In this document: positions 8,005 through 24,892 of the stretch, one piece after another
Position numbering within the stretch: the stretch's first letter is position 1
How the letters are laid out: every line of letters begins with the position of its first letter
Virus record (IMG/VR): IMGVR_UViG_3300029266_000554
Span: 1 to 27,516 of that record
Source: a virus
Length of the DNA: 27,516 bases
Reading direction: 5' to 3' (one strand)
Made by a program: the position numbers and the translations under genes
The notes under the pieces: model-generated
The model's database searches: none
What the model saw: the letters and a program-made list of their open reading frames with translations, nothing else
What the model was told of the DNA's origin: nothing

Positions 8005-8500
8005 ACTTCAACGGCATACTTGCTATTCCACCATAGTTCATCTTCTTGGGGTTTACTAAGTTTTCTAAATAATCATCTAACTTGGAATATGCTTCTTGGT
8101 TCTTACCTATAAGAGTACCTAATCGTCCGCTTGCGTTGGGATTATTCATTATGTCGTTGTTGTAAATATCATCAAGCCTCATTTTATCTTTCATAATTTT
8201 AGGCTTTATTACTTTGAATGCTGCTGTTTGTTCTCCTTTGCCCATGCCTTTTAAAGCGTTAACAACTTTTTGGAGTGCAGGAAATGCCTCTTCTGTATCT
8301 AGACCTTTAGGAAAAAGTTTTAATAGACCTTTAGCTGGACCTGTGAATTTTCCAGGACCCATTGCCATGTTTGCCATTTTATTTACTAGTCCAGGTTCCA
8401 TAGATTGTAAAAGATTATCTTTAGCCAATACTTTATTAAGACGTTGTAGTGCGTCAGAATCTTTTTGAGATTCGTACTTTTCTAAAAAACTTTCAGCCAT
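7994..8500 (-). CDS. Unknown protein upstream of TerL
   Basis: This 168-residue, mostly helical, basic protein contains LQRLNKVLAKDNLLQSM, a Gly/Lys/Phe-rich stretch (AMGPGKFTGPAKGLLKLFPKG) and a C-terminal tail KMNYGGIASMPLKYGL. The GGIAS-type tail is a feature I recall in small marine phage proteins. Its position next to TerL might suggest a small terminase, but it lacks the typical LTPKQ/AGYS signature, which is found in another gene. The ribosome site AGGAG lies seven bases before ATG, and the start overlaps the upstream gene by eight bases. Confidence 0.6.
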   Translation of the reverse strand: MAESFLEKYESQKDSDALQRLNKVLAKDNLLQSMEPGLVNKMANMAMGPGKFTGPAKGLLKLFPKGLDTEEAFPALQKVVNALKGMGKGEQTAAFKVIKPKIMKDKMRLDDIYNNDIMNNPNASGRLGTLIGKNQEAYSKLDDYLENLVNPKKMNYGGIASMPLKYGL

Positions 8501-8849
8501 GGTTTATCTCCTGTAGTTTTATTTTATACTCTTTACGGGCTTTTAGTAAAGTTTCTTTATTTTGCATGATAATACTAGGGACAGGGGTAGAATAATGTTC
8601 GTCGTCAGGATGTGACCAAAACCACTCAGCTTCTGGTCTATCGTCGTTTAGATCTTGGACTATGGCTATAAGGTCATCGCGATTGGTCGAGGGATGACAC
8701 TTGAATAAAACTGCGTCGTAATTGTGTAGTGTCTCATAGTAGACAGATAATAGGGTAGGGTCATAGTCGTACACGAGTAACCGATCTTGGTCGTAGGACT
8801 CTAGTGAGTGAGGACATACGGAATTTATGTGTTCGAAATATTCTCTCAT
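8493..8849 (-). CDS. Unknown acidic protein, first gene of the late operon
   Basis: This 118-residue protein has many aromatic and acidic residues (YDQDRLLVYDYDPTLLSVYY, AEWFWSHPDDEHY) and no motif I recognise. It is the first gene after the noncoding region and so opens the packaging and capsid transcript. A candidate promoter lies 43-70 bases upstream, and GAGG precedes ATG at a short spacing. Confidence 0.55.
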   Translation of the reverse strand: MREYFEHINSVCPHSLESYDQDRLLVYDYDPTLLSVYYETLHNYDAVLFKCHPSTNRDDLIAIVQDLNDDRPEAEWFWSHPDDEHYSTPVPSIIMQNKETLLKARKEYKIKLQEINHG

Positions 8850-9258: not shown

Positions 9259-9316
9259 TTTATGTATAGTTTTTATATATAAATTATATACACTTTATTA
9301 CTTTACTTTACTTATA
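9259..9316 (+). repeat. AT-rich palindromic module, copy 2
   Basis: TTTATGTATAGTTTTTA, then a near-palindrome (TATATATAA-A-TTATATACA, one mismatch) and TTTACTTTACTTATA, which supplies the -35 region of the 9397 gene. Confidence 0.8.
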
Positions 9317-9330
9317 TATGTTAGTATCAT
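9302..9330 (+). promoter_or_regulatory. Promoter for the 9397 gene
   Basis: TTTACT (9302-9307), 17 bases, TATCAT (9325-9330). The -35 sits in TTTACTTTACTT, the same string found in the promoters of both paralogous genes (9861 plus strand; 14255-14260 minus strand). The predicted transcript has a leader of about 60 bases. Confidence 0.6.
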
Positions 9331-9810: not shown

Positions 9811-9873
9811 TATGTATAGTTTTTATATATAAATTATATATACTTCTTTTTAGATATTACTTTACTTTACTTA
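9809..9873 (+). repeat. AT-rich palindromic module, copy 3
   Basis: TTTATGTATAGTTTTTA followed by the perfect inverted repeat TATATATAA-A-TTATATATA, then TTTACTTTACTTATAG, which forms the -35 region of gene B. Confidence 0.8.
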
Positions 9874-9890
9874 TAGATCAGGGTTATAAT
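9861..9890 (+). promoter_or_regulatory. Promoter for the 9957 gene
   Basis: TTTACT (9861-9866), 18 bases, perfect TATAAT (9885-9890). It shares TTTACTTTACTTATA with the gene A promoter. Confidence 0.7.
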
Positions 9891-9956
9891 AACCTAATGG
9901 TTAGGTAATAAGGCTTACTAATCATTGCTAACTAACTAAGCCTCATGGTAATTATT

Positions 9957-11379: not shown

Positions 11380-11418
11380 ATAATAGGCGGGATGCCCTAC
11401 ATGGTAAAGCATAGTCAA
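11380..11418 (-). promoter_or_regulatory. Accessory-type promoter 1
   Basis: Reading leftward: TTGACT (11413-11418), ATGC, TTTACC (11403-11408), 17 bases, TATTAT (11380-11385). It drives 11345 and 11166. Confidence 0.75.
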
Positions 11419-11423
11419 AGGGT

Positions 11424-11777
11424 TTACGCCCTACCATCTTCTAGATTATAAGCACTTTGAACGTACCTATAATCTTCCGCAAATAGTTCATGAGCCACAG
11501 CTTTAAGTAGAAATTCATCGAACTTACCTTTAGTAACCGACCAGTGATGAGCCTGATAACCACCGTTAACATGAGAGTAAGTAAACCAATTAGGATCGTT
11601 AACGCTACCCTTATTGAATTCATAATAGGTGATACTTATACGATGTTTATTACTACCCAGCAGTAATTCATTAAGTTCTTTAGGGTATTCGATATTGAAT
11701 AAATACCCAGTCTCATGAGGGCGATCGTCAGGTTGACATTCTTCAAAATCTTCGGCTTTTACATTCTCGTTAATCAT
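11424..11777 (-). CDS. Unknown acidic protein
   Basis: 117 residues from ATG 11777 (MINENVKAEDFEECQPDDRP...). The frame is open to 11843, but that region is the coding sequence of a 37-residue membrane protein in another frame, and ATG 11777 overlaps its stop by one base (TAATG), so translation is probably coupled. Visible features are an acidic start, aromatic clusters (NWFTYSHVNGGYQAHHW) and a helical end. No recognised family. Confidence 0.65.
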   Translation of the reverse strand: MINENVKAEDFEECQPDDRPHETGYLFNIEYPKELNELLLGSNKHRISITYYEFNKGSVNDPNWFTYSHVNGGYQAHHWSVTKGKFDEFLLKAVAHELFAEDYRYVQSAYNLEDGRA

Positions 11778-11890
11778 TATAACCACCACACAACCACACA
11801 TAGTAGTAACGCTATTGGTTTTAGTATAAACCAGCTGAACCATTCCACACCTTGCATATTCCTGAAATATTCTTTATTAGTGACTCTCAT
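11777..11890 (-). CDS. Single-pass membrane mini-protein (37 residues)
   Basis: Starts MRVTNKEYFRNMQGVEWF, continues with a hydrophobic segment SWFILKPIALLLCVVVWWL and stops with TAA shared with the next ATG. The ribosome site AAGGAG is seven bases before ATG, and an accessory-type promoter lies 35 bases upstream. The topology (about 18 polar residues, then one transmembrane helix at the very C-terminus) resembles tail-anchored phage mini-proteins. It could act on the host membrane; no holin signature beyond the single helix. Confidence 0.75.
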   Translation of the reverse strand: MRVTNKEYFRNMQGVEWFSWFILKPIALLLCVVVWWL

Positions 11891-11924
11891 AATTTTCTCC
11901 TTATATTATTTAATTACTAAGGTA

Positions 11925-11963
11925 ATTTTAACGTTGATCACCTACATGGTATAGGAGAGTCAA
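11925..11963 (-). promoter_or_regulatory. Accessory-type promoter 2
   Basis: TTGACT (11958-11963), CTCC, TATACC (11948-11953), 17 bases, TAAAAT (11925-11930). It shares ATGTAGGTGATCAA after the -35 with the promoter at 12875-12913. Confidence 0.72.
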
Positions 11964-12032
11964 AAGAAAAACACTAGGTATATAGGACCAGAGAACAGGA
12001 TACATAATAAAAATAAAGTCTCAAAATCATCA

Positions 12033-12245
12033 TTACTCATCTTTAGTTACACCATTTATACGATTAAGAGTTTTAGCCTGTTTGTTACAATTATCTAAGT
12101 TTAAAGGATTAGAGAATGTAAAAATAATCTCTTCATCTCCTCTTGGTCTTTCGATTATGTTTTGGTTACTCCAACCATTCTTTTCTTTGGTCCAGCAAAT
12201 CTTCTGATTTTTTTCTAATATGTCTTTTCCTGTTATTTTACTCAT
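12033..12245 (-). CDS. Unknown small protein
   Basis: 70 residues from ATG 12245 (MSKITGKDILEKNQKICWTK...). This start gives the recurrent 8-base overlap (ATGAGTAA) with the upstream gene; longer in-frame starts would overlap it by about 90 bases. It contains GWSNQNIIERPRGDEEIIFTF and ends VTKDE, similar to the ETKDE end of its neighbour. Function unknown. Confidence 0.6.
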   Translation of the reverse strand: MSKITGKDILEKNQKICWTKEKNGWSNQNIIERPRGDEEIIFTFSNPLNLDNCNKQAKTLNRINGVTKDE

Positions 12246-12444
12246 CTTTAGTCTCCCATTTATATAAAAGCTTAAACATTTCATCTTCAAATGATTGGTA
12301 CTCCTCATCTTCGGGTAACCAGTTACCATCTAAGTCTAGTATCTTTAATACTTCATCTGCTAAAAACTTAGCCAGTCGCCACCTAGCAATCTGCTCATCT
12401 AGTTTGGTAGTAGTGCGTATTGTCATTAAATCTTCTGGCTTCAT
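12238..12444 (-). CDS. Unknown helical acidic protein
   Basis: 68 residues: MKPEDLMTIRTTTKLDEQIA, a helical KFLADEVLKILDLDG and an acidic end (LPEDEEYQSFEDEMFKLLYK). The start overlaps the upstream zinc-ribbon gene by four bases (ATGA). No known family. Confidence 0.6.
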   Translation of the reverse strand: MKPEDLMTIRTTTKLDEQIARWRLAKFLADEVLKILDLDGNWLPEDEEYQSFEDEMFKLLYKWETKDE

Positions 12445-12623
12445 AAGTAATCCCTCCCGAAAACTTTACCTGTAGCTGAAAGCCACAATGGTGTAACAAC
12501 TTCATACTCACACGATTGACAATGACCACCTTCCTTAGCACCTATTTCTGGGTTTATTGCTACAAAAGATTCATGGTCTTTGCACTCTGGGCAATCAATG
12601 TATGGGTTTATATATTTTTTCAT
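12441..12623 (-). CDS. Zinc-ribbon mini-protein
   Basis: 60 residues with two CxxC knuckles: C11-PE-C14 and C35-QS-C38 (GGHCQSCEYE), spaced as in a small zinc ribbon. Such proteins bind nucleic acid or host transcription proteins, but no specific target can be read. The start overlaps the upstream gene by four bases (ATGA), and it belongs to the promoter-3 operon with 12844 and 12444. Confidence 0.7.
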   Translation of the reverse strand: MKKYINPYIDCPECKDHESFVAINPEIGAKEGGHCQSCEYEVVTPLWLSATGKVFGRDYL

Positions 12624-12844
12624 ATTAACCCCTCTACTAAATCACCTTCACCTAATGAACCCGCACCCCATAACTCTTTACCTAACATACAGTAAATAGT
12701 AATAAGTCCTGGTTTATTGGTAAGGTCGGTGTAGACTTCCTCGTCTAGTGAGTTAGCTTTATAGACTAAGAATCTAGTAGCTTGGTTTATAGACCATTCT
12801 TCTAATAATTCGTTATTAGTAGTTGGCCATGTAACATTATTCAT
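12620..12844 (-). CDS. Unknown small protein
   Basis: 74 residues from ATG 12844 (MNNVTWPTTNNELLEEWSIN...). The open frame continues to 12964, but ATG 12844 has AAGGAG seven bases upstream and follows the promoter, while the extension would run through the promoter itself. It contains VYKANSLDEEVYTDLTNK and ends GSLGEGDLVEGLI. No family recognised. Confidence 0.65.
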   Translation of the reverse strand: MNNVTWPTTNNELLEEWSINQATRFLVYKANSLDEEVYTDLTNKPGLITIYCMLGKELWGAGSLGEGDLVEGLI

Positions 12845-12874
12845 ATTAATACTCCTTTTATTTAATATACCTAT

Positions 12875-12913
12875 ATAATAGTTTTGATCACCTACATGGT
12901 AAAGCATAGTCAA
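12875..12913 (-). promoter_or_regulatory. Accessory-type promoter 3
   Basis: TTGACT (12908-12913), ATGC, TTTACC (12898-12903), 17 bases, TATTAT (12875-12880). Drives the operon 12844-12033. Shares ACATGGTAAAGCATAGTCAA (plus-strand reading) with promoter 1. Confidence 0.78.
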
Positions 12914-13034
12914 AAAGATAAAAAACTGGTTATAGAGTCGAGAAATAATAAGAACATGGTCCATAGAGCTACTTTAATAATTCTACGATCAGTACGATCC
13001 ACACTAAATCCTTGTTATATTTATATAACCTATA

Positions 13035-13337
13035 TTATAAAATTGATGGTAATTTGGGTAAAGGAAGTTCTTTAACCCATGCTAGTATAACCACTTCAGG
13101 TATGTTATTTATAACACTATGCACTGAGCGATGCCTAGTAAATCTACCACTGTCATAGCCTGTATAATGTAATATCACATATTTATCGCCCAGCCATGTT
13201 ACAGATTTATTAGCATCAGTAAAACTTAATTCGAATGATAAAACCACCTTTGGTGCTATATGTACTACTCCTCCTTCACTAAAGGGTAGATCTGATATAG
13301 CATTTATTAATATACTTTTACTCTCTTCTATATTCAT
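13035..13337 (-). CDS. Unknown small protein
   Basis: 100 residues: MNIEESKSILINAISDLPFS, a beta-rich middle (GGVVHIAPKVVLSFELSF) and a basic segment GRFTRHRSVHSVINNI. The start overlaps the upstream gene by four bases (ATGA). It is the last gene of the promoter-4 operon. No recognised family. Confidence 0.6.
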   Translation of the reverse strand: MNIEESKSILINAISDLPFSEGGVVHIAPKVVLSFELSFTDANKSVTWLGDKYVILHYTGYDSGRFTRHRSVHSVINNIPEVVILAWVKELPLPKLPSIL

Positions 13338-13717
13338 GAGATGGGAACATACTCCATATATGGTGACTGTACATAACCGTCAGGTTTAAAGTTTATGGTA
13401 GAACTATGATAATCGTAAGCTTCTTTATCTATACTGACTGTATCACCTGTTTCCTCGTCAAAGGAAACTATAACAGCACGTCCTGCTAAAGGTTGTGGTA
13501 TTTCGTGTAGTTTAAAGTATCTTTGAGTTACTTCGTTAAATAGACCCTCGTCATCTACTATAACCATATGTTTAGGATGTAAAGTCACTATATCTACGGG
13601 ACTAGTGATACCCATCACATCTTTACAGTGGTCTATAAAGTTTTCTTTAGGTAATTGTATTCTTACTACTGACTCACTGAATGGGTCAACAAGTAAACAG
13701 TTATATAAGTTACTCAT
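13334..13717 (-). CDS. Conserved phage protein, GLFNEV/PLAGRAV type
   Basis: This 127-residue protein has the pattern MVIVDDEGLFNEVTQRYF, then IPQPLAGRAVIVSFDEETGD. I recall this 'DDEGL...PLAGRA' signature from many phage early proteins (similar to the DUF3846 type), usually of unknown function. It overlaps both neighbours by four bases (ATGA), so it is translated with the zinc-ribbon gene upstream and the 100-residue gene downstream. Confidence 0.6.
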   Translation of the reverse strand: MSNLYNCLLVDPFSESVVRIQLPKENFIDHCKDVMGITSPVDIVTLHPKHMVIVDDEGLFNEVTQRYFKLHEIPQPLAGRAVIVSFDEETGDTVSIDKEAYDYHSSTINFKPDGYVQSPYMEYVPIS

Positions 13718-13899
13718 ACTTTTAACCCCATTAAAGACATTCTTAAAGGTAAAACAAAGACAGCGTTACACATAGCACAACATCTACCTTCTTTGTACGG
13801 CTCAGCATTTTCACCTGAGTCCCAGTAGACTTTGCCTTCTGGGGTTTTTTTCTGTTCAATGTCACCTTTACAAATGACACACTCTTTTGGTTTTGACAT
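13714..13899 (-). CDS. Zinc-binding mini-protein
   Basis: 61 residues with C7-VI-C10 and C40/C41-AM-C44, separated by an acidic linker (YWDSGENAEPYKEGR): a probable treble-clef or zinc-ribbon site. The ribosome site AGGAG lies seven bases before ATG. It follows the LNYD-family gene by 19 bases without a visible terminator, so both are probably on one transcript. Confidence 0.7.
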   Translation of the reverse strand: MSKPKECVICKGDIEQKKTPEGKVYWDSGENAEPYKEGRCCAMCNAVFVLPLRMSLMGLKV

Positions 13900-13918
13900 A
13901 ATTTACTCCTATAAATTA

Positions 13919-14185
13919 TTAAGTTACTATCTCTAAGGTTTTAATCTTATTGATATCATAGTTAAGGTCAGTAGCAGTATATAAACCACCAGCTAATGCC
14001 TCTTTTATAGTTCTACCATTAACCGATTTAACTCTTGCGTTATTCTCGTCACTGGTTACTTTTTTGCCTGTCGCTCTTAATTTAGCGTCAGGATGAAATT
14101 TACCAAACTTCACATTAGGTGTAGTCTTGGCTGTTTTTACTTGGCTTTTTACCAATGTAGATTTTTTTGCTGTAGCTTTTGTCAT
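13919..14185 (-). CDS. LNYD-family small protein C
   Basis: 88 residues with a Lys/Thr-rich N-terminus (MTKATAKKSTLVKSQVKTAK) and the family module NNARVKSVNGRTIKEALAGG, then TATDLNYDINKIKTLEIVT. It is on the opposite strand from genes A and B. Its promoter has the same TTTACTTTACTT string but also the TTGACT box of the accessory promoters. The ribosome site is AAAGGAGGG. Unlike A and B it has no own terminator and leads an operon of four genes. Function unknown; the basic N-terminus fits a nucleic-acid-binding protein. Confidence 0.8.
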   Translation of the reverse strand: MTKATAKKSTLVKSQVKTAKTTPNVKFGKFHPDAKLRATGKKVTSDENNARVKSVNGRTIKEALAGGLYTATDLNYDINKIKTLEIVT

Positions 14186-14231
14186 ATTATTTGCCCTCCT
14201 TTAAAAGGTTAGTTATTAAAGTTACTAGATA

Positions 14232-14270
14232 ATAATAGGTTAGATCAAAAGTAAAGTAAACCATAGTCAA
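14232..14270 (-). promoter_or_regulatory. Accessory-type promoter 4 (hybrid)
   Basis: TTGACT (14265-14270), ATGG, TTTACT (14255-14260), 17 bases, TATTAT (14232-14237). The TTTACTTTACTT string links it to the plus-strand promoters of genes A and B, the TTGACT box to the other accessory promoters. Confidence 0.75.
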
Positions 14271-14280
14271 AAGGTTTTAA

Positions 14281-14640
14281 ATGAGGTGTTTGGTGTGTTA
14301 TTAAAGTCAATTTTGGAGCCCCTCACGAGGAACTTCAACAACTCAATCCGCCACCAAACGAGCGGATAAAATATTAACCCTCGTGAAGAGAAATAGGGTG
14401 GCATTGGCTCAGTAAAAACACCAAGCACTAGCCACTTGGAAGTCTAGTAGTTTAGAGTCACTTCTCGGGATAACTTCCTCGCACCCGATGGCTGACTTTG
14501 CAAGTTTTCTAAGATTAACCAGTTTTATTATGAAGTTTAAAAAGCTGTCTAAAACTTTTTAAACAAGCTCTACTCTCTGGTGTCGCACACATCCTAGAAT
14601 GATTTCGCTGTGTACTTACGGAACAGCTGTTGTTTGGCGA
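14281..14640. other. Noncoding region with many stems; candidate structured RNA
   Basis: No open frame is convincing in either direction. Perfect stems: TCACGAGG 14323-14330 with CCTCGTGA 14379-14386, enclosing ATCCGC/GCGGAT (14346-14351, 14362-14367); CCAAG/CTTGG (14421-14439); TCGGG/CCCGA (14465-14488); GTTTAAAAAG/CTTTTTAAAC (14535-14564); GTGT/ACAC (14580-14590); the palindrome AACAGCTGTT (14622-14631). Nested and serial stems suggest a structured RNA or a cis-acting DNA site. Not recognised as tRNA, tmRNA or RNase P RNA. Confidence 0.5.
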
Positions 14641-14653
14641 GTAAAGCCGAACA

Positions 14654-14839
14654 TCATGAAAATAATTTTACTAAACTTTCGTATCTTTCTGTGGGAACAT
14701 GTTGTAAGTGCGTAGGTCTAGGACGACTATCTAAGTAGTGTCTCACACCACAGTCCTCGCACTCCATAACACTATCTAAAGTTCCTTTTGAATTGATATT
14801 TATACTATTACGCCAGTCATGTTTACAAGCATCATCCAT
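14654..14839 (-). CDS. Zinc-ribbon mini-protein
   Basis: 61 residues from ATG 14839 (MDDACKHDWRNSININSKG...). Possible metal ligands are C5 and H7 in CKH, and C27-ED-C30 (ECEDCG). The frame is open upstream to 14881, but ATG 14839 has GGGGA six bases before it and gives the recurrent 8-base overlap (ATGGATGA) with the previous stop. It resembles the short zinc-ribbon proteins common in phage accessory regions. Confidence 0.65.
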   Translation of the reverse strand: MDDACKHDWRNSININSKGTLDSVMECEDCGVRHYLDSRPRPTHLQHVPTERYESLVKLFS

Positions 14840-15038
14840 TATAATCCCCATTAACAACCCTATTATTAATAGCTTCAGCAAGCTCTATATGTGATTCTAC
14901 ACATAATTTAATTTGTATAAAAGCACCATAGTTAGCTAAACTGCCTTCTATGTCATTAGAGTCATTCATACTCGCGTCCATTACTTTATTTATAAGGGCT
15001 AAAGATTTTCCTAGCTCCTTTTTAGTTTCTTCATCCAT
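14832..15038 (-). CDS. Unknown small helical protein
   Basis: 68 residues, mostly helix: MDEETKKELGKSLALINKVM, then SNDIEGSLANYGAFIQIKLC and HIELAEAINNRVV. The ribosome site is AGGAG before ATG. It is first in the operon driven by the promoter at 15073-15111. No known family. Confidence 0.65.
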   Translation of the reverse strand: MDEETKKELGKSLALINKVMDASMNDSNDIEGSLANYGAFIQIKLCVESHIELAEAINNRVVNGDYNG

Positions 15039-15072
15039 ATATATCTCCTATATATTATTAATTACTAAGTAA

Positions 15073-15111
15073 ACTATAACTAAGATCTTTTACTCGGTAT
15101 AGGATAGTCAA
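15073..15111 (-). promoter_or_regulatory. Accessory-type promoter 5
   Basis: TTGACT (15106-15111), ATCC, TATACC (15096-15101), 17 bases, TATAGT (15073-15078). It lies over the 3' end of the upstream gene (stop at 15080), so the promoter is embedded in coding sequence. Confidence 0.72.
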
Positions 15112-15388
15112 AATCTTTTATATCTAGATCAAAATGGTCAATCTGCCTAGCGAATAAAGTAGGTGTTGGTACTTCTGGAGTTGTATAGGCTTCGTTGGTA
15201 AAACTTTCTTCTAACGTTACCTTTCTTACTATGCCGTCGGTAAAACCTTTATTAGCTCGGTCAACTGCGTCGTCTAGTGAGTTGGCTTTAACAGGGTACA
15301 TCTCTACGTGTATAGTGGTAAGGGGAATATAATATGTCTTCAAGTTAGGGTTATTACTAACTAATTTTAGTTTTGTTTTGTCTTTCAT
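15080..15388 (-). CDS. Unknown small protein
   Basis: 102 residues: MKDKTKLKLVSNNPNLKTYY, a segment HVEMYPVKANSLDDAVDRAN of a kind often seen in small phage proteins ('a-x-s-x-d-e-A'), then an acidic end. GGAGC precedes ATG. It is a single-gene unit between promoters 6 and 5; its last codons carry promoter 5. Confidence 0.6.
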   Translation of the reverse strand: MKDKTKLKLVSNNPNLKTYYIPLTTIHVEMYPVKANSLDDAVDRANKGFTDGIVRKVTLEESFTNEAYTTPEVPTPTLFARQIDHFDLDIKDFDYPIPSKRS

Positions 15389-15488
15389 ATACGCTCCTAA
15401 TTAAGTGGGTAGTTATAGTGATACCCACACTCGAACATTACCTTTTATAGTCACCGAACGCCTGACTAGTTACTAACTAACTAAATAT

Positions 15489-15517
15489 ATTAAAACTTAC
15501 ATCCCTAACATAGTAAA
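15489..15517 (-). promoter_or_regulatory. Accessory-type promoter 6 (weaker upstream box)
   Basis: TTTACT (15512-15517), 17 bases, TTTAAT (15489-15494). At the place of TTGACT is ACGATT (15522-15527), which keeps only part of the box. It drives 15388; the gap 15389-15519 holds nothing else. Confidence 0.5.
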
Positions 15518-15519
15518 GC

Positions 15520-16218
15520 TTAATCGTATGCACCTAGTAACCAAAAAACCAGTAGATACCTATCACCTTTGTCTACTTTAAGACCACGGTGCATGTGTGT
15601 AAAACTAGGGAAAAATAACGCATGTCCTCGTGGTAAAGGGGGTACAACTCCTCGACCATGAAACTCAGTACCTCCGCCTTGATACTTACCTGTGTTTAAA
15701 GGTACAACTACGCTTATATCAGCACTAGCGTCGTGATGCCACTCTCCCTGCTCTCTTTTAGCTAAATTATAGTTGGCTAACTGTATTGAATTAATTTTTA
15801 AACTGTAGCGTTGCCATACTGCGGTGAATAAAGGGTTCATGTGATTTAATACCACGCTGTGTAGATTTTCAGATAACTGTGGGATGTTATCTTGTAGAGT
15901 AACTTCAGGGATCTGTCGTAACTCATCCTCGTCATCATTTTCGGTAAAACCTAAATAATGTTCGATGTTTTTTATTTCGTCTAACATCATATCGCAGAAA
16001 TCTTCCGTAAACAGAGGCACTGAGTAAACGTCAGGTAGTTCTTCTTTTATATATTCTTGTAAAGGTATATTTAATTCTTGAGTACCATCTCCCGCATGGA
16101 ATTTTATAATTTCAAGCTCAGAGTCTTGTATTAATGCTAATGTGGTTTTATCTATCATCCAATCTGACTGTATAGCTAACATAGTGTTTTTAATTCTATA
16201 GGGTTTTGATCTATCCAT
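15520..16218 (-). CDS. 2OG-Fe(II) oxygenase (prolyl-hydroxylase-like)
   Basis: 232 residues. The C-terminal half is a double-stranded beta-helix dioxygenase: iron ligands H161 and D163 in EWHHDASADISVVVPLN, GGGTEF (about 181-186), the distal His in FTHMHRGL (H210 most likely, H208 possible) and R220 in VDKGDRYLLVFW for 2-oxoglutarate. The N-terminal about 110 residues are unlike known parts. Similar genes are common in marine phages and are thought to hydroxylate proteins; modification of nucleic acid is possible given the DNA-modification genes upstream but is not shown. The ribosome site is AAGGATAAATA. Confidence 0.85.
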   Translation of the reverse strand: MDRSKPYRIKNTMLAIQSDWMIDKTTLALIQDSELEIIKFHAGDGTQELNIPLQEYIKEELPDVYSVPLFTEDFCDMMLDEIKNIEHYLGFTENDDEDELRQIPEVTLQDNIPQLSENLHSVVLNHMNPLFTAVWQRYSLKINSIQLANYNLAKREQGEWHHDASADISVVVPLNTGKYQGGGTEFHGRGVVPPLPRGHALFFPSFTHMHRGLKVDKGDRYLLVFWLLGAYD

Positions 16219-16379
16219 TATTTATCCTTTTTAAATAATTTGTCCGCACTTTTTTGTAACGAACGCTCTAATAATTTATCTGCTAACTTACTGATCTTCG
16301 GTGTCTTTTTGAATATTCTATCCCAGCTTTTGAGTATCTTGTTAGTATTTTCAGGACGTCGCTTACTACCTTTACTCAT
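16218..16379 (-). CDS. Small basic protein, MSKGSKRRP...WDRIF type
   Basis: 53 residues: MSKGSKRRPENTNKILKSWD, then RIFKKTPKISKLADKLLE and a Lys-rich end. The GSKRRP...WDRIF pattern is one I recall from very small proteins in marine phages, function unknown. It is supported by an 8-base overlap (ATGAGTAA) with the small terminase and a one-base overlap (TAATG) with the oxygenase gene downstream. Confidence 0.7.
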   Translation of the reverse strand: MSKGSKRRPENTNKILKSWDRIFKKTPKISKLADKLLERSLQKSADKLFKKDK

Positions 16380-16848
16380 CTTCTATTTCTCCTTCTATGA
16401 TTTTACCTGCTGGTAGTATTCCGCCAGTATCATAATACATTTGTTTCATTCTATCTAACACTTCTTCTTTTGACATAGTGTCAACTCTATTAACTGTTAA
16501 CTCACTACGATTAACATAAAGTCCTGCTGCTTTACCCCTAGCAACTTCAGCAGTTACCGCAGCAGACCATGCACCATTACGTACAGCACCTTCTCTTATA
16601 TCTCGCAGATCAGTAAGATGGGTAGCTAAGTTGAGCTCAACTTTATTTGCAGCTTTTTCTTGTAATGCTCCTATTCTTTGTTTAACAAGTGGGTTAGCCT
16701 CTGAGTCTAATAAATACCCAGCACGTGTAGCGTTTTTCTCACTGTACCCTGCATCAACTGCAGCATCTTTCTTTTTCATGCCTTTGGCTACGTTTTGCGC
16801 ATATTTTTCTTGTTTAGGAGTTAGTTTTTTTGCTTTTTCTTTTGTCAT
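16372..16848 (-). CDS. terS: Terminase small subunit (TerS)
   Basis: 158 residues. The N-terminal HTH region (about 9-60) has the typical signature LTPKQEKYAQNVAKGMKKKD, then AAVDAGYSEKNATRAGYLL and NPLVKQRI; a helical oligomerisation region follows (LATHLTDLRDIREGAVRNGA). This matches the terminase_2 type of DNA-recognition subunit. It would recognise the packaging site and recruit TerL, yet it lies 8 kb away in the accessory block instead of before TerL. It overlaps the zinc-finger gene upstream by 35 bases. Confidence 0.85.
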   Translation of the reverse strand: MTKEKAKKLTPKQEKYAQNVAKGMKKKDAAVDAGYSEKNATRAGYLLDSEANPLVKQRIGALQEKAANKVELNLATHLTDLRDIREGAVRNGAWSAAVTAEVARGKAAGLYVNRSELTVNRVDTMSKEEVLDRMKQMYYDTGGILPAGKIIEGEIEDE

Positions 16849-17305
16849 TTTGTTTCCGTTGTGCGCATCTGTGGTATTCTAAACGCTCTTTATATTTTTT
16901 ATCATTCTTTTCTTTTAGCCTACGATAACTTGCCGTAGCTAATCCAACACCACAATGTTCTTTATGGGAAAGTTGTAGTTGTTCAAAACCGTCATATATT
17001 ACTAAAAGTTCATGTTCTATTTTAGCTTCTTGCTGAAGGTCGTGATTATGAATAGCCACATTTAGTATATCTTGGTCTATAGGGTAGTCATCAAGAGTGC
17101 CAAAAATCATATTAACACCACCAAAAATCTCGTCGTGCTTAATAGAACTAGATCCACTCATTGCTTTTATTCCACCTGTGTTGTTAAAAACATTTTTGTA
17201 CATTTTTTGATTGCTTTTATTCTGCATCTTATATGTACAACGGTCGCTACAGTAAATACTTTTTTCTCGACGTTGTTTTACACATTTAACATAGGCACAA
17301 AGCAT
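16814..17305 (-). CDS. Protein with N-terminal zinc finger
   Basis: 163 residues. The N-terminus has C3-x4-C8-x10-C19-SDR-C23 (YCSDRCTYK), a treble-clef-like zinc site; the middle is acidic and helical; the C-terminus is very basic (RRLKEKNDKKYKERLEYHRC, KRKSKKTNS). A basic tail plus zinc finger suggests DNA or RNA binding. It is placed immediately upstream of, and overlaps, the small terminase gene, so a role in packaging-site recognition or nicking is possible, but no HNH catalytic His-Asn-His set is visible. Confidence 0.65.
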   Translation of the reverse strand: MLCAYVKCVKQRREKSIYCSDRCTYKMQNKSNQKMYKNVFNNTGGIKAMSGSSSIKHDEIFGGVNMIFGTLDDYPIDQDILNVAIHNHDLQQEAKIEHELLVIYDGFEQLQLSHKEHCGVGLATASYRRLKEKNDKKYKERLEYHRCAQRKQNDKRKSKKTNS

Positions 17306-17309
17306 TAGA

Positions 17310-17546
17310 TCAAGACTGTCTCCATATTCTAAGTATGAAAGGTACTTCTTCTTTATACGTTCTAGTGACCATAGTTTTATTATTTCTTATGCCATAATTG
17401 CTGGCTGCTACGCGTATCTTCGCTGCTTCTTTAGGCTCATTGTATTCAATGTCCATGTGATCACCTATATTTAATTTATAGAAATGGTATTTCTGATGAG
17501 CAGTTTCTGATCTGTCTGGGATAGGTATTTGAGCACTATTTTCCAT
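17310..17546 (-). CDS. Small phage protein, GDHM...AASNYG...RIWR type
   Basis: 78 residues: PIPDRSETAHQKYHFYKLNI, GDHMDIEYNEPKEAAKIRVA, ASNYGIRNNKTMVTRTYKEE and a final RIWRQS. I recall this pattern (F-x-x-L-x-x-GD, then AAxxYGxRNxxxFxTR, then R-x-WR) as a frequent small protein of marine phages; its function is unknown to me. It overlaps the upstream gene by 11 bases and is followed four bases later by the zinc-finger gene. Confidence 0.65.
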   Translation of the reverse strand: MENSAQIPIPDRSETAHQKYHFYKLNIGDHMDIEYNEPKEAAKIRVAASNYGIRNNKTMVTRTYKEEVPFILRIWRQS

Positions 17547-17751
17547 TTACAAGTACCTCTCCACCTTTCCAGAAATATGCATCTTGGGTTTTATCATCTG
17601 GTCTTGTGAACACATAAATAGTTTCTGGGTTAAACCTTTTATCTAAAACGTTACACCATACTTCTGATTCACTCTCGTCGCAACAGAGTACTTCTGACCT
17701 ATTGTCAAGTGATTTAGTGCCGTAACTTACTACCCAAGTCTTTTTTGTCAT
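17536..17751 (-). CDS. Unknown small protein
   Basis: 71 residues: MTKKTWVVSYGTKSLDNRSE, then two cysteines (VLCCDESESEVWC) and IYVFTRPDDKTQDAYFW. The ribosome site AGGAG is before ATG, and the promoter at 17780-17818 makes it the first gene of the operon that includes TerS and the oxygenase. No family recognised. Confidence 0.65.
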   Translation of the reverse strand: MTKKTWVVSYGTKSLDNRSEVLCCDESESEVWCNVLDKRFNPETIYVFTRPDDKTQDAYFWKGGEVLVNGK

Positions 17752-17779
17752 AATTAACTCCTATTAATATATACCTTAT

Positions 17780-17818
17780 ATAATATAAATGTTCGGTATA
17801 TAAGTAAAGGATATTCAA
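17780..17818 (-). promoter_or_regulatory. Accessory-type promoter 7
   Basis: TTGAAT (17813-17818), ATCC, TTTACT (17803-17808), 17 bases, TATTAT (17780-17785). It precedes the TerS-containing operon. In the gap to 17912, a weak GGCT/AGCC stem (17898-17912) may end the previous transcript. Confidence 0.7.
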
Positions 17819-17911
17819 AAAGTAATATATAAGTCGAGACCGTTTGATTTACTAGGTAAGGCGTTAGTATTTAACTAAGTAATCAAAGGCTTAAAACGGC
17901 TCACAGTAAGC

Positions 17912-18184
17912 CTAAATAACCTTAGAATAAAAAGGTATTTTTTTAACCCTAACAAATCGAAACTTACTTTCTCCAGTAGAGTTTTTCGATGCTTTAAATA
18001 TTGATTTACTTATCTGATCTCTATAGACTTCCAACCAGTTAGGCAAATCAAATTTGTGCATACTTGAAGTCTCAGACAGATCTACTTGTATATCTAATCT
18101 TATTGGTCCGTGTATGTTTGCGTCAGGGTTGTAGTAAACTACTTCAGCTATAGAGACAAAATTATTTGTATTTTTTCTTATCAT
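17912..18184 (-). CDS. Unknown small protein
   Basis: 90 residues with a beta-rich N-terminus (SIAEVVYYNPDANIHGPIRL, DIQVDLSETSS) and a basic C-terminus (SKSIFKASKN, KFRFVRVKKIPF). It overlaps the upstream LNYD-fusion gene by 23 bases. No recognised family. Confidence 0.55.
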   Translation of the reverse strand: MIRKNTNNFVSIAEVVYYNPDANIHGPIRLDIQVDLSETSSMHKFDLPNWLEVYRDQISKSIFKASKNSTGESKFRFVRVKKIPFYSKVI

Positions 18185-18737
18185 TTACTATTCGGTAAGC
18201 TTTGATGTAACCTAATTTAATATCATACTTAATATCGTTAATGTTTAGTTCGGTAAATTTTAATATTGCTTCTATAGTGGGTTTACCTTTATTAACGTCT
18301 ATGTAATTAGATAACCTATTTTTTATTTTTTGACTTAAAGGGTTTTTATCAGTACGTTCTATTAACCAGTCTATATCCCAAGGGTCACGACCACGTACAG
18401 TTTTACAATGGTTATCTGGTTTAGGTATATCTACTTTTTGTTGTTTATATAAATTTTTCATATCATCCTCGGTTATAGGTTTAGCTTTCTTCATTAATAC
18501 TTTGTATAAGGCAAACTGTCCACACTTAGCCGTATCAAATTTCTTAGCTTTACCTGTGTATTCTTTATACCAACGTTCAGCTTGTACTATGCCTAAAGAC
18601 GGTGACATCATCATAGGATCTCCTATATGAACACCACCACCTTTGACTTTATGCATCTCAGTCATATTGAACTTCACTACCCGACTAGGAGAGTCAGGTA
18701 AGAAGTAAACAAAGTTTATATTATACGCTGGGTGCAT
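18162..18737 (-). CDS. LNYD-module fusion protein D
   Basis: 191 residues. The N-terminal about 140 residues are unlike anything I know (MHPAYNINFVYFLPDSPSRV; GGGVHIGDPMMMSPSLGIVQ; RGRDPWDIDWLIERTDKN). Residues about 148-182 carry a version of the small-protein family module: VNKGKPTIEAILKFTELN, then INDIKYDIKLGYIKAYR. This matches the spacing of VNG-x-t-x-x-(n/e)AL...DLNYD in the three stand-alone proteins. The conserved GDPMMMSP region could be catalytic or binding, but nothing proves it. It overlaps the upstream gene by 17 bases. Confidence 0.6.
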   Translation of the reverse strand: MHPAYNINFVYFLPDSPSRVVKFNMTEMHKVKGGGVHIGDPMMMSPSLGIVQAERWYKEYTGKAKKFDTAKCGQFALYKVLMKKAKPITEDDMKNLYKQQKVDIPKPDNHCKTVRGRDPWDIDWLIERTDKNPLSQKIKNRLSNYIDVNKGKPTIEAILKFTELNINDIKYDIKLGYIKAYRIVNDKKKYK

Positions 18738-18987
18738 TATTAGTGTAGTGATCGTAGATACCTGCTTCTACTAACTGGTCGTATGCTGCTTTTTTACTTT
18801 TCTTAAGACCATGAAAGTATTCTTTTAAAACCTTAAAGCTAGATATTCTAGTAAACTTAAGACCTTTAGAATTAGCCTCTAGCCTTAACCCTATTAAAGC
18901 TGTGACCATACGCATAGTATGCATCTTCTCTAAGTAGTGCCCTCCGTCCTCTGCAGCTTTCCATATATCACCGTTTAATTCTAACAT
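18721..18987 (-). CDS. Unknown small helical protein
   Basis: 88 residues: helical with GDIWKAAEDGGHYLEKMHTM, RMVTALIGLRLEANSKGLKF and TRISSFKVLKEYFHGLKKSK. I recall a frequent marine phage family with 'LR.E...GLK.T...S....K..fG.k..K...y.q', to which it may belong, function unknown. The ribosome site is AAAGGAGAAAAAT, and a promoter lies at 19016-19054. Confidence 0.65.
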   Translation of the reverse strand: MLELNGDIWKAAEDGGHYLEKMHTMRMVTALIGLRLEANSKGLKFTRISSFKVLKEYFHGLKKSKKAAYDQLVEAGIYDHYTNNAPSV

Positions 18988-19015
18988 ATTTTTCTCCTTT
19001 AAATTAACTATATTA

Positions 19016-19054
19016 ATTAAACTATAGGTCGTTAATCTTTACTAGCATAGTCAA
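19016..19054 (-). promoter_or_regulatory. Accessory-type promoter 8 (divergent -35)
   Basis: TTGACT (19049-19054), ATGC, TAGTAA (19039-19044), 17 bases, TTTAAT (19016-19021). The TTGACTATGC box is perfect but the second hexamer is poor; an alternative -10 is TATAGT (19021-19026), 22 bases after TTGACT. Confidence 0.55.
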
Positions 19055-19061
19055 AATAAAC

Positions 19062-19358
19062 TTAATATTTACCTTTAATAAGCCGTATATCCTGAAGGTT
19101 TAACCACTCTCTTAATTTAGCAGTTCTTTCTGCTGAGTCTATTTTAGGTGTGTTGTCTATTTCAGACTTTTTATCCATGTACATCTTATAACCTTTGTAA
19201 TAATCTCCTTTGCCTAGATGGTTAAACCTAACAATCTGCCAAGCACGTTGTTTACTGATCCCATACTTGATACCCATCTCTTCTAGTGTCATTCCGCTGT
19301 TCATGGTGTGCATGAATATTTTAAAATACATCTCATCTTTTTCTGTACGTCTACTCAT
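19062..19358 (-). CDS. HTH protein resembling sigma70 region 4
   Basis: 98 residues. The segment MTLEEMGIKYGISKQRAWQIVR (about 23-44) matches the sigma region 4 helix-turn-helix ('LTLEEIGxxxGVSRxRVRQI'), the part that reads the -35 element. The rest is a basic linker (HLGKGDYYKGYKMYMDKKSE) and a C-terminal helix. It is the last gene of the replication operon, overlapping the polymerase stop by eight bases (ATGAGTAG), just before the accessory block whose promoters share an unusual -35 region. It may regulate phage transcription; not proven. Confidence 0.65.
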   Translation of the reverse strand: MSRRTEKDEMYFKIFMHTMNSGMTLEEMGIKYGISKQRAWQIVRFNHLGKGDYYKGYKMYMDKKSEIDNTPKIDSAERTAKLREWLNLQDIRLIKGKY

Positions 19359-21909: not shown

Positions 21910-22409
21910 TATATACCTCCGTATATCTTAATAAGATAACCCAGTAACTGTTTACCTTTATTGTTTAAATCGTTTGATGCTAAAAACTCAACACCGTTAC
22001 TAAAAACTTCATTCATATTAGTATTACCTAAACGCCTTTGACGTACACAAAATACTAGTAACTCAAACATGTCCGCCTGTTTACCCAACTTAGTTTCTAT
22101 TGGGTCGAGCTTATAACTAATGCCTATGTCACTTTCATACTTATCTTCTATCCTTTTTAATACTTCTACTAAATCAGGGTTAGCCCACTTGACAGGGGCA
22201 GGAATATCACCAGTAAATAGTTCAGCTACGTCATGAGTTAAAGCTCTTAATATAGCTTCTTTACTTACGTTAGGCTCAAGATATTGTAGTATTATAGCTA
22301 CGCCCCAAGAATGAGAAGCTACTGATTGCTCACCTATAGTTTCTAGTGTGTGGTAACGTTTAATAGTTCCACCACGTATCATATTAAATAAATCATTCAT
22401 ATCTGTCAT
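21909..22409 (-). CDS. HD-domain 5'-deoxynucleotidase (YfbR-like)
   Basis: 166 residues from ATG 22409, which has AAGGAG about 10 bases upstream. HD phosphohydrolase motifs: R18, H33 (SVASHSWGVA), H59-D60 (RALTHDVAELFTGDIPAPVK, E63 and D68 included) and D113 (GKQADMFELL). This is the YfbR pattern, and YfbR removes phosphate from deoxynucleoside monophosphates. In a phage that replaces a base, such an enzyme can deplete the normal dNMP; the substrate here is unknown. An alternative ATG at 22400 would give the 8-base overlap seen elsewhere. Confidence 0.85.
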   Translation of the reverse strand: MTDMNDLFNMIRGGTIKRYHTLETIGEQSVASHSWGVAIILQYLEPNVSKEAILRALTHDVAELFTGDIPAPVKWANPDLVEVLKRIEDKYESDIGISYKLDPIETKLGKQADMFELLVFCVRQRRLGNTNMNEVFSNGVEFLASNDLNNKGKQLLGYLIKIYGGI

Positions 22410-23079
22410 TACACATTTTCTCCTTACCAAAGTAACACCATTTACAACCAAACGTACTAGGTTTAGCTGGGAACTCTGTAGCTGTTGTCATGGCTACGGC
22501 TCTGTCATTTAACTTCTTTTGTTTATGAACTATGTTATCAGCACTATATTCGTACCTATCTATTTTACCATGGTCTAAATACCACAGCTCTGTAGTTATA
22601 GTTTTAATTTCAGGCATACGTTCTAGTACAACCGCACCATATAACTCACACTGTTCTCTATGTGTTTCTTGATTGCCGTCATATCTACCTGTTTTAAAGT
22701 CTATAACTCTAGCGGTATCTGTGCCGTCTATGTGTACAAAAGCATCTACTTTAGCCCTACCCCATGTAGTTTCACCAAACCATGGAGCAGGTTTCCAATC
22801 TTTATCAAAAGCCCAATCACCCTCACATGTCACGTAACTTTTAAGGTGAAGTTCTTTTAATGCATCAAAAGCTTCTTCAAAGTCAGCTAAAGGTTTAGGT
22901 ATCTCATCATAACGACCTCTTATATAATCTTCACACATAGTATGGATATCTTTACCTCTATCCATAGCTTTATTTCCTGGCTCTTTTATACGTTTAATGT
23001 AAGCATAGTGTGCTTTCTTAGGGCACTTTTCAAAAGTACCTAATCTACTATATGACCATTGATGTATTTTATCACTCAT
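22393..23079 (-). CDS. PD-(D/E)XK exonuclease, Cas4/RecB-like with Fe-S cysteines
   Basis: 228 residues. Nuclease residues: H46, D112 (GRAKVDAF), D127 and K129 (VIDFKTG), Q143...Y147 (REQCELYG). The iron-sulphur set is C19 (FEKCPKK) plus C212, C215 and C223 near the C-terminus (GCKWCYFGKEKMC), as in Cas4 and AddB. Phage versions process DNA ends during replication or recombination. No CRISPR locus is in the window, so this is not an adaptation gene. It overlaps the ThyA-family gene by four bases (ATGA). Confidence 0.88.
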   Translation of the reverse strand: MSDKIHQWSYSRLGTFEKCPKKAHYAYIKRIKEPGNKAMDRGKDIHTMCEDYIRGRYDEIPKPLADFEEAFDALKELHLKSYVTCEGDWAFDKDWKPAPWFGETTWGRAKVDAFVHIDGTDTARVIDFKTGRYDGNQETHREQCELYGAVVLERMPEIKTITTELWYLDHGKIDRYEYSADNIVHKQKKLNDRAVAMTTATEFPAKPSTFGCKWCYFGKEKMCNDRYE

Positions 23080-24110
23080 TTAGTCCTCCTCAACAACCAG
23101 TCAAAACCAGCGGTTGCCCAATCAGTAGCAGCACAGTTTTGAACCTCAGACATAGCATCATCAGTATCACCTTGCTTATGTAAAAACCATGCATCTTGTA
23201 AAGGCACAGCTACATCACTAAAAAATACGTCATCAAACTCTATATCTTGAAAAGGTTTACGATCTAAAAATTTTACTAAATCTTTATTCCAATCTTCTAT
23301 GTTATCGCTATTAAACATAGGGAAATAATTAATGGATTTATTATCATATGGGTTCTCAAAATGTTTAATTGAATAGTAGTCAAAAGCGTCAGACTCTTCT
23401 AGCCTAGAATGCATTTCATCAAATACTTTAGTGTATGCGTGAAAACTATCACTAACTTGAGTGTACTCACCTATTTCTACATCTATAGCACTAGCTACGT
23501 ATTCTTGTAACATAGACATATGTACTACGTTAGCCCCGAATGTGCCCCATATAGCGTCGTTAGACCTACAGCAAACTGTCATTAATAACCTGTTATTACG
23601 TATCTTAAAATAAATAGTAGTGTTACAAGGTACATCTACGCCTTTACGATCTAAGTCATTTACGGGATCCCACATCTGTAACACGCATCTTCTATCGGTA
23701 GGATCATTCTTTAGTCTTTCAATAATGATTTCTAACTGGTTGATAGTACCTAAAGCTACACTAGAACCATCACGGAAATAGTCTATCCATCTCCAACCAT
23801 AAGCACCATGTAGTGTTTCACCATCATCACTATAATCACTCATACGATTGTTATACTGTTTAACAAAAGTTAAATCATTACGACCAGCCAACATCCACAA
23901 ACCCTCCATAAAATGAAAGAATGGATTAGCATCTCTTACTTCTTCAAATAAAACTCTTTCCCAAGGTTTATCATATACTGTGCTCACAGCACACTCATGT
24001 TCTACTACGTTACCTACTCGACTTTCTTTTATATCTTCTTGATCAAAAGAAAGCATATCCATAGCTTTTATAAAACCATCATTAACGTTTCTACATCTAA
24101 TTACATCCAT
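23076..24110 (-). CDS. ThyA-family enzyme: thymidylate synthase or dUMP hydroxymethylase
   Basis: 344 residues, longer than bacterial ThyA (about 264). Family residues are present: R140-R141 (DPTDRRCVLQMWDP), nucleophile C162 (DVPCNTTIYF), RSND (182-185), N194 (FGANVVHMS), H224 and Y226 (DSFHAYTKV). The Asn fits dUMP rather than dCMP. At the position of E. coli Trp80/Trp83 (TIWDEW) it has RMSDYSDDG, so both Trp are absent; loss of Trp80 in thymidylate synthase lets the methylene intermediate escape, and hydroxymethylases lack it. With base-modification genes upstream, 5-hydroxymethyl-dUMP synthesis is plausible; plain thymidylate synthesis is the alternative. Confidence 0.85.
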   Translation of the reverse strand: MDVIRCRNVNDGFIKAMDMLSFDQEDIKESRVGNVVEHECAVSTVYDKPWERVLFEEVRDANPFFHFMEGLWMLAGRNDLTFVKQYNNRMSDYSDDGETLHGAYGWRWIDYFRDGSSVALGTINQLEIIIERLKNDPTDRRCVLQMWDPVNDLDRKGVDVPCNTTIYFKIRNNRLLMTVCCRSNDAIWGTFGANVVHMSMLQEYVASAIDVEIGEYTQVSDSFHAYTKVFDEMHSRLEESDAFDYYSIKHFENPYDNKSINYFPMFNSDNIEDWNKDLVKFLDRKPFQDIEFDDVFFSDVAVPLQDAWFLHKQGDTDDAMSEVQNCAATDWATAGFDWLLRRTK

Positions 24111-24892
24111 TAAAATAACTCCCCTGATTGTTTACTTACACCACTATTATATGCTCTTTTCCACTGTACGTTTACATCTTTACGTATGCCACCACCCCAT
24201 GCTGTTTTAGTTTCCTTTTCAACTATTTTAACAAAGTCGGGGTGTAGCTCATGTAGTAATTCAGCACCTTTTGACTGTACTTCTTCAGTACGCCACTCAC
24301 TACAACCGCCAGCAGCATTAGAAGACTTTTGACCTTGAGCATAATAATAACTAATTTTACTACCTTTACCTTGACGCAATAACTGTAGGTTTATATCAAA
24401 ATCTTCCATAACTTCAGTTCTAGCTAACTCAATGCCTTCGAACATATCTAGGTTATACCCTAGTACTCTCATGTACCTAGTATTCTCTACTGATAAGTGC
24501 TCTACTCGGTTATTACCTTCTCTACCACTAACACCTACATGTGCATGGTCATCAAGCCACTTATCCAGTAACCCAAATAAAGCAGGATACTCTTCAGGTT
24601 CCATGTACCTTAAATGCCAGTCTGTAGGAGATTTACGTATATAAAAACGTAGGTCATCATCTAACATAACTATCTTAGGGTCGGTGGTGTTATCGTGTAT
24701 AAATTTACGTTTACCTGATATACCTTTTATAGATGAAGGGATAACCATGTATTTACAATCGTATTTATCTTTGTATAAATGCTCCTCATCATCATCAATA
24801 ACGAGGACTACTTCTTTACGCATCTCCTCTGGAAAAAATGACAGGGTAACTTGATCGTGTGCTCTGCCTCTAGTTGGAATATAAATTATCAT
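24110..24892 (-). CDS. TAGT-like glycosyltransferase (DNA-modification type)
   Basis: 260 residues with a GT-A-type start IPTRGRAHDQVTLSFFPEEM, a nucleotide-sugar/metal motif MLDDDLRFY (D78-D80) and an acidic site EDFDINLQLL (E163-D164). The pattern IPTRGR...R...I...DDD matches the TET-associated glycosyltransferase (TAGT) family that phages use to glycosylate hydroxymethylated bases in DNA. The C-terminus is basic. It sits between the ThyA-family gene and the thymine-pyrophosphorylase-like gene with one-base overlaps on both sides (TAATG), consistent with one pathway. The acceptor base is not shown by sequence. Confidence 0.7.
   Translation of the reverse strand: MIIYIPTRGRAHDQVTLSFFPEEMRKEVVLVIDDDEEHLYKDKYDCKYMVIPSSIKGISGKRKFIHDNTTDPKIVMLDDDLRFYIRKSPTDWHLRYMEPEEYPALFGLLDKWLDDHAHVGVSGREGNNRVEHLSVENTRYMRVLGYNLDMFEGIELARTEVMEDFDINLQLLRQGKGSKISYYYAQGQKSSNAAGGCSEWRTEEVQSKGAELLHELHPDFVKIVEKETKTAWGGGIRKDVNVQWKRAYNSGVSKQSGELF

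Follow-up and report, generated by a model that had tools for sequence, protein, structure and literature searches.

A recurrent promoter class and its candidate sigma-region-4-like reader in a probable marine phage genome fragment

The window analysed here is the whole IMG/VR record IMGVR_UViG_3300029266_000554, a stretch of 27,516 bases that is classed as linear and is probably a fragment of a marine phage genome. The minus strand carries most of its genes. The terminase large subunit, portal and other structural genes lie on the left, a block of small genes occupies the middle, and a helicase, nucleotide and DNA-modification genes, and the DNA polymerase gene (polA) are found on the right. 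Nine copies of one promoter element stand before genes of the small-gene block, and a 98-amino-acid (aa) protein resembling region 4 of sigma factors, the candidate reader of these promoters, is encoded next to polA (Table 1). A preliminary description of this DNA had called the block accessory; since it includes the terminase small subunit gene, it is not purely so. The window terminase is 57-62% identical to those of the Pelagibacter phages HTVC023P and HTVC027P and of phages 023Pt_psg01 and DSL-LC04, its DNA polymerase is 48-52% identical to theirs, and the order of modules is the same in all four. When 10 kb of the window, block included, was compared with phage records at near identity, no match was returned.

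Table 1. Coordinates of the promoter copies and of the candidate reader gene (-17- marks the 17-bp gap to the -10 element).
Feature	Position	Strand	Sequence and context
Promoter copy 1	11380..11418	-	TTGACTATGC TTTACC -17- TATTAT; before gene starting 11345
Promoter copy 2	11925..11963	-	TTGACTCTCC TATACC -17- TAAAAT; before gene starting 11890
Promoter copy 3	12875..12913	-	TTGACTATGC TTTACC -17- TATTAT; before gene starting 12844
Promoter copy 4	13034..13072	-	AAGAACTTCC TTTACC -17- TATAAT; before 30-aa GTG-start gene at ~13001
Promoter copy 5	14232..14270	-	TTGACTATGG TTTACT -17- TATTAT; before gene starting 14185
Promoter copy 6	15073..15111	-	TTGACTATCC TATACC -17- TATAGT; before gene starting 15038
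Promoter copy 7	15489..15527	-	ACGATTAAGC TTTACT -17- TTTAAT; before gene starting 15388
Promoter copy 8	17780..17818	-	TTGAATATCC TTTACT -17- TATTAT; before gene starting 17751
Promoter copy 9, degenerate	19016..19054	-	TTGACTATGC TAGTAA -17- TTTAAT; before gene starting 18987
98-aa sigma-region-4-like helix-turn-helix protein	19062..19358	-	overlaps end of polA; candidate promoter reader

Promoter copies in the small-gene block

All nine copies lie on the minus strand, and each is followed by a start codon that has a ribosome-binding site. The preliminary description had counted eight, built from a TTGACT box, a TTTAC-type element and a -10 element with exactly 17 bp between the latter two. 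Six copies have all three parts (first T of TTGACT at 11418, 11963, 12913, 14270, 15111 and 17818), two are partial, and one, copy 4, had been missed. The 17-bp gap recurs in all nine, although TTTACY itself is absent from copy 9, where TAGTAA stands in its place. A position weight matrix (PWM) built from the six full sites scores 35-53 bits on its own training sites, compared to at most 16-18 bits in shuffled sequence. When each of these sites was left out in turn, five of the six outscored all other non-training positions on both strands, and for site 17818 a single position equalled or beat its score. With the refined family matrix described below, eight window sites reach 28-40 bits and the ninth (19054) reaches 14 bits. 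Elsewhere in the window the same matrix yields at most 12.6 bits on the minus strand and 9.7 bits on the plus strand, which bears out the earlier observation that the sites are confined to the block.

Several copies deserve individual description. Copy 4 scores 28 bits and is conserved in contigs L012 and L099, and copy 6 sits within the 3' end of the preceding gene. In copy 7, ACGATTAAGC replaces TTGACTATSC, so that no TTGACT box is present; it nevertheless scores 33 bits with the family model and has orthologous copies in L008, L031 and L099. The automatic gene pick for copy 7 is a small GTG frame, and its likely target is the 102-aa gene at 15,388. The score of the degenerate copy 9 falls inside the range of shuffles; its place is occupied by an identical sequence in L008 and by a related TTGAATATCC-TTTTAA-N17-TATATT in L012 and L014. 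At 11963 and 12913 the TGA within TTTTGACT doubles as the stop codon of an upstream hydrophobic micro-gene of about 26-30 codons.

Two copies of ATTACTTTACTTTACTTATA were also observed on the plus strand, at 9290-9330 and 9850-9900, each before a gene of about 80 aa whose product resembles the protein of 13919-14185. Similar sites occur on the plus side of L099 and L103, and the plus-strand copies are possibly a promoter variant with 17-18 bp spacing. Furthermore, the non-coding stretch 14275-14655 (minus strand) before copy 5 folds more stably than shuffled sequence (z = -2.9). It is 90% identical in L012 and L014 and 76-82% identical over parts in L099 and L015, and the distant phage L333 (15074-15140) shares a 67-nt piece of it at 91% identity. 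A Rfam search of the window for structured RNA, this stretch included, gave no match; the stretch is a possible unnamed non-coding RNA.

Anatomy and distribution of the element among relatives

The family matrix was iterated over DNA fetched around polymerase and terminase homologues. It comprises 151 distinct sites (effective number 58) and was used at a threshold of 17 bits, above which 0.55 Mb of shuffled sequence gave 0-1 matches. The family consensus is GAYtATSCTWTACY-n8-SATC-n5-TATAAT. Counted from the first T of TTGACT, the conserved columns are G2 A3, A6 T7 S8 C9, T10 W11 T12 A13 C14 and S24 A25 T26 C27, with the -10 element at 33-38, and the first two T are hardly conserved. SATC, at spacer positions 9-12, constitutes a fourth conserved element that had previously gone unseen. 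The conserved GA and ATSC run directly into TTTAC, so the TTGACT box is not independent and the first two boxes form one continuous element. Of the site proposed earlier to be fused to each promoter, the shared site stands, but the separate, added-on TTGACT box does not.

The TTGACT box is conserved in near relatives but not in distant ones. In the aligned sites, the core common to distant relatives is SCTTTAC(TT), and GA..AT and SATC are limited to the lineage of the window. The distance from GA to SATC is 22 bp, or two helical turns (z = 2.55 at lag 22, the best of 19 lags and before correction for these 19), which would be compatible with a second protomer or domain in this lineage. We considered 11-bp phased repeats (TTGAC / TTAC / TTGATC), as in an OmpR/PhoB/CtrA operator, and rejected them, with a PWM self-similarity at lag 11 of z = -0.87. 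Dyad symmetry was likewise rejected, with no distinct centre in the motif (best z 1.9 of 33).

The reading of TTTACC and TATTAT as a sigma70 -35/-10 pair holds for its second half. The -10 element is of the TATAAT type at a fixed 17-bp spacing, but TTTACY is not a normal -35 element, because base -33 (T12, in the place of the G in TTGACA) is almost never G: the family matrix has T in 90%, A in 7% and G in 1%.

Relatives that carry the sigma4-like gene together with a polymerase-to-terminase block of at least 9 kb (about 9-10 kb) contain 5-10 motif copies. Almost all of these are on the coding strand, and a start codon equipped with a ribosome-binding site usually follows 25-60 nt further on. 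The proposal that one shared regulator site coordinates the small genes is thus well supported, for about 25 genes in the window. In every relative with many motif copies the sigma4-like gene follows polA. No motif copies were found in HTVC023P, HTVC027P or 023Pt_psg01. Phages of the HTVC023P type and phage DSL-LC04 lack both the gene and the promoter class, and their promoters, where visible, are of the TTGAC type, as are those of HTVC027P and other outgroups.

More distant homologues of the 98-aa protein were found via an alignment led by the copy from contig L285, and 9-mer enrichment upstream of genes was then assessed in these phages independently of the window's matrix. Promoters of the SCTTTACTT type are common to most of them: the top upstream 9-mers included, beside the ribosome-binding site, CTTTACTTT, TGCTTTACT, TSCTTTACT or similar words. 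In group g287 such a 9-mer occurs in 21 of 84 upstream regions (0.3 expected); enrichment is also seen in g313, g333 and g335 and, more weakly, in g322, g317 and g290. The same count upstream of genes in control outgroup phages without the gene gave nothing comparable. Per 10 kb, SCTWTAC-N18-TANNNT precedes genes 1.29 times in phages with the gene and 0.13 times in those without it, compared to 0.02 for scrambled motifs. This strict count is zero in the gene-bearing L046, L081, L211, L219 and L322, partly since their variant is TTAAC or TTTTA. Among TTNAC promoters of gene-bearing phages, base -33 is T in 146, A in 32, G in 4 and C in 3, and the C at -31 is kept; for the phages lacking the gene, pooled, the counts are T 18, G 19, C 2 and A 3, with many of these T from the loss clade described next.

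The polymerase tree places the gene-bearing phages in a single large clade with 100% support in the SH-like approximate likelihood ratio test (SH-aLRT) and one nested loss (L058/L226), and an earlier tree with fewer rows agrees. In the loss clade (L058, L226, L264, L225 and L229) a different small open frame follows polA, and just 1-2 sites exceed a score of 20 with the family matrix.

A weaker but related site, TGCATTATGC-TTTACT-N17-CTAAAT, was observed in L008 (190), L014 (120), L031 (177), L077 (1090) and L081 (1140). It precedes a gene for 176-177 aa about 10 kb upstream of polA, past the end of the window, and is perhaps a further member of the regulon.

The sigma-region-4-like protein

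The 98-aa protein is the only good candidate regulator found among the window proteins, not every small one of which could be assigned. With a family profile built from 24 representatives, homology to the helix-turn-helix of sigma70 region 4.2 is evident: 23 of the 24 members match Pfam Sigma70_r4 at E <= 1 (best 2.7e-5), and the best match of the profile in the PDB is region 4 of E. coli RpoD (E = 5e-4, positions 15-42). The AlphaFold2 model shows five helices with a predicted local distance difference test (pLDDT) score of 88, and the C-terminal part is conserved as GDYYxGY / RxWLxxxxIRLIK. Unlike sigma70, the protein is free-standing, and no region 2, region 3 or -10-binding part was found in it.

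No homologues of the window protein were found in isolated phages, and a relative's protein gave matches there at chance level only, several of them in sigma factors. Among bacterial genome contigs we found one relative, on a contig binned as Marinimicrobia with a phage-like gene order. No characterised member of the family was found here. In the distant outgroup L242, a 59-aa helix-turn-helix-like frame (8391-8570) follows polA and matches the profile weakly (E = 0.014); it is possibly an ancestral form of the gene.

Recognition helices were compared across 88 distinct proteins. At the positions corresponding to sigma70 584, 586, 588 and 589 they hold K, R, W and Q with no exception, and the site aligned with 585 holds Q in 72 and A in 16; sigma70 itself has R584, E585, R588 and Q589. 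Genetic work reviewed in PMC2613000 links E585 and R588 of sigma70 to base -33, where the substitutions E585Q and R588H make recognition less strict, and R584 to a contact with -31. The helix-turn-helix of these mutants can be aligned with that of the window protein, and in both the residues that choose base -33 are changed. Residues tied to -33 in sigma70 are thus different where base -33 is different, and the change in the recognition helix fits the change in the promoters, as a correspondence rather than a proof.

Proposed reading of the promoters and its alternatives

We interpret the nine sites as one phage-specific promoter class that is probably, though by no means securely, read by the phage sigma-region-4-like protein as an activator. 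Host RNA polymerase would use the ordinary -10 element of the nine promoters, and the operator GAYtATSCTWTACY with the downstream SATC, at about -44 to -19, would replace the -35 region. The protein would be made with the replication genes, from the replication operon, and would bind the SCTTTAC element at about -38 to -32. The polymerase, anchored on the -10 element, would then start about nine downstream small-gene operons, which would form a middle regulon. Binding of the operator by the protein, activation as opposed to repression, and host RNA polymerase as the partner are inferred from sequence; the protein may displace host sigma region 4 or contact it from a neighbouring site. The -10 element speaks for host RNA polymerase rather than a single-subunit phage polymerase, and T7-type RNA polymerase (PF00940) was not matched in 13 records, nor in any control.

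The arrangement recalls the middle promoters of phage T4, in which a phage element likewise replaces the sigma70 -35 element, a good -10 element is kept, and host RNA polymerase serves a regulon of phage genes. The T4 MotA box WWWTGCTTtA (PMC2988021) also resembles tATGCTTTAC of the window promoters. However, 12 +/- 1 bp separate the MotA box, centred at -30, from the -10 element (PMC2988021), whereas TGCTTTA ends 19 bp before that element in every window copy with the similar 9-mer, and a T4-type MotA box was rejected on this distance. MotA and AsiA (PF09158, PF09010) had no match in 13 records, many of them fragments, in a search in which no control genome exceeded the cut-off. Furthermore, T4 MotA is a double-wing domain, in contrast to the helix-turn-helix of the candidate reader, and AsiA/MotA displace host sigma region 4 by another route than the one proposed here. 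The promoter class would work like T4 middle promoters, yet it is not one by the spacing rule.

A bolder form of the proposal, which we put forward tentatively and consider doubtful, is a free-standing phage substitute for sigma region 4. Here the 98-aa protein would replace host region 4 on RNA polymerase and, through the changes at 585 and 588, re-target the holoenzyme from TTGAC to SCTTTAC, a one-protein sigma appropriation shared by uncultivated marine phages that make up a large clade. Should this hold, sigma appropriation in T4 would have a simpler counterpart here. The candidate regulator comes with a rule, that the residues equivalent to sigma70 585 and 588 would set base -33. To our knowledge, almost everything known of these marine phages comes from sequence, and little is known of how they time their genes; promoters that can be recognised as one class would make operons and gene timing readable directly from metagenomic contigs.

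Several findings weigh against activation by the sigma4-like protein. The main doubt, and the reason why our confidence is only modest, comes from the loss clade, which retains several TTTAC promoters, some with flanks changed to GGTTTACA, whose last base is nearer to TTGACA. A clean co-loss of gene and promoters is thereby ruled out, and the element can exist without the gene; either host sigma now reads these promoters or the sigma4-like protein was never the reader. The gene has a single origin and a single loss on the tree, so few independent events underlie the association, and the gene-bearing g290, g310, L046 and L081 show the core weakly or not at all in these counts. The window protein alone scores below the Pfam cut-off (13.1 vs 24.1 bits). 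A structure search with the model returned generic helix-turn-helix matches, with sigma4 chains at Z 3.5-4.6, below DeoR and LsrR, and so neither singles out nor excludes sigma region 4. The span from GA to SATC, about 26 bp, exceeds the reach of a single helix-turn-helix, and an A at 585 (in L008, L031 and part of the window's clade) leaves the motif unchanged.

Some of these points suit a different reader of the same promoter class, namely another phage protein or an adopted host regulator, with the sigma4-like gene a mere fellow traveller of the clade. We regard this as a serious but less probable explanation. The single origin and loss of the gene and the persistence of TTTAC promoters without it would both be expected, and the 26-bp site suggests a dimer or a second protein. 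Phages of Alphaproteobacteria provide a precedent, as they adopt the host regulator CtrA, with sites likewise concentrated before genes in one part of the genome (PMC9437464). However, the 11-bp phasing of the OmpR/PhoB/CtrA class is absent from the window promoters (lag 11 z = -0.9), the core persists in phages with polymerases only about 58-67% identical to that of the window and tracks the gene, and the sigma4-like recognition helix matches the change at -33.

Alternatively, these could be ordinary host sigma70 promoters with a weak -35 element (TTTACY-N17-TATAAT) and a repressor operator around it, through which the block is switched off. The good -10 element, the 17-bp spacing, which is the sigma70 optimum, and an operator over -35 would all suit repression. 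However, repression needs no loss of G at -33, and the gene-bearing clade almost never has G there while outgroups use TTGAC-type promoters; no lysogeny gene was seen in the window, an incomplete fragment. We therefore consider this explanation unlikely. It is highly improbable that the sites are repeats due to chance, or recent duplicates of a single promoter segment, that share no regulation: copies 1-3 do have the extra bases ATGTAGG in common, but the motif positions are conserved among diverged relatives, in which the orthologues of each copy have flanks of their own.

To the right of the block, a minus-strand row of genes at 22393-25746 encodes an exonuclease, a thymidylate-synthase-type enzyme, a protein matching beta-glucosyl-HMC-alpha-glucosyltransferase, and phrog_2396. 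Their products may give the phage DNA a modified, glucosylated base.

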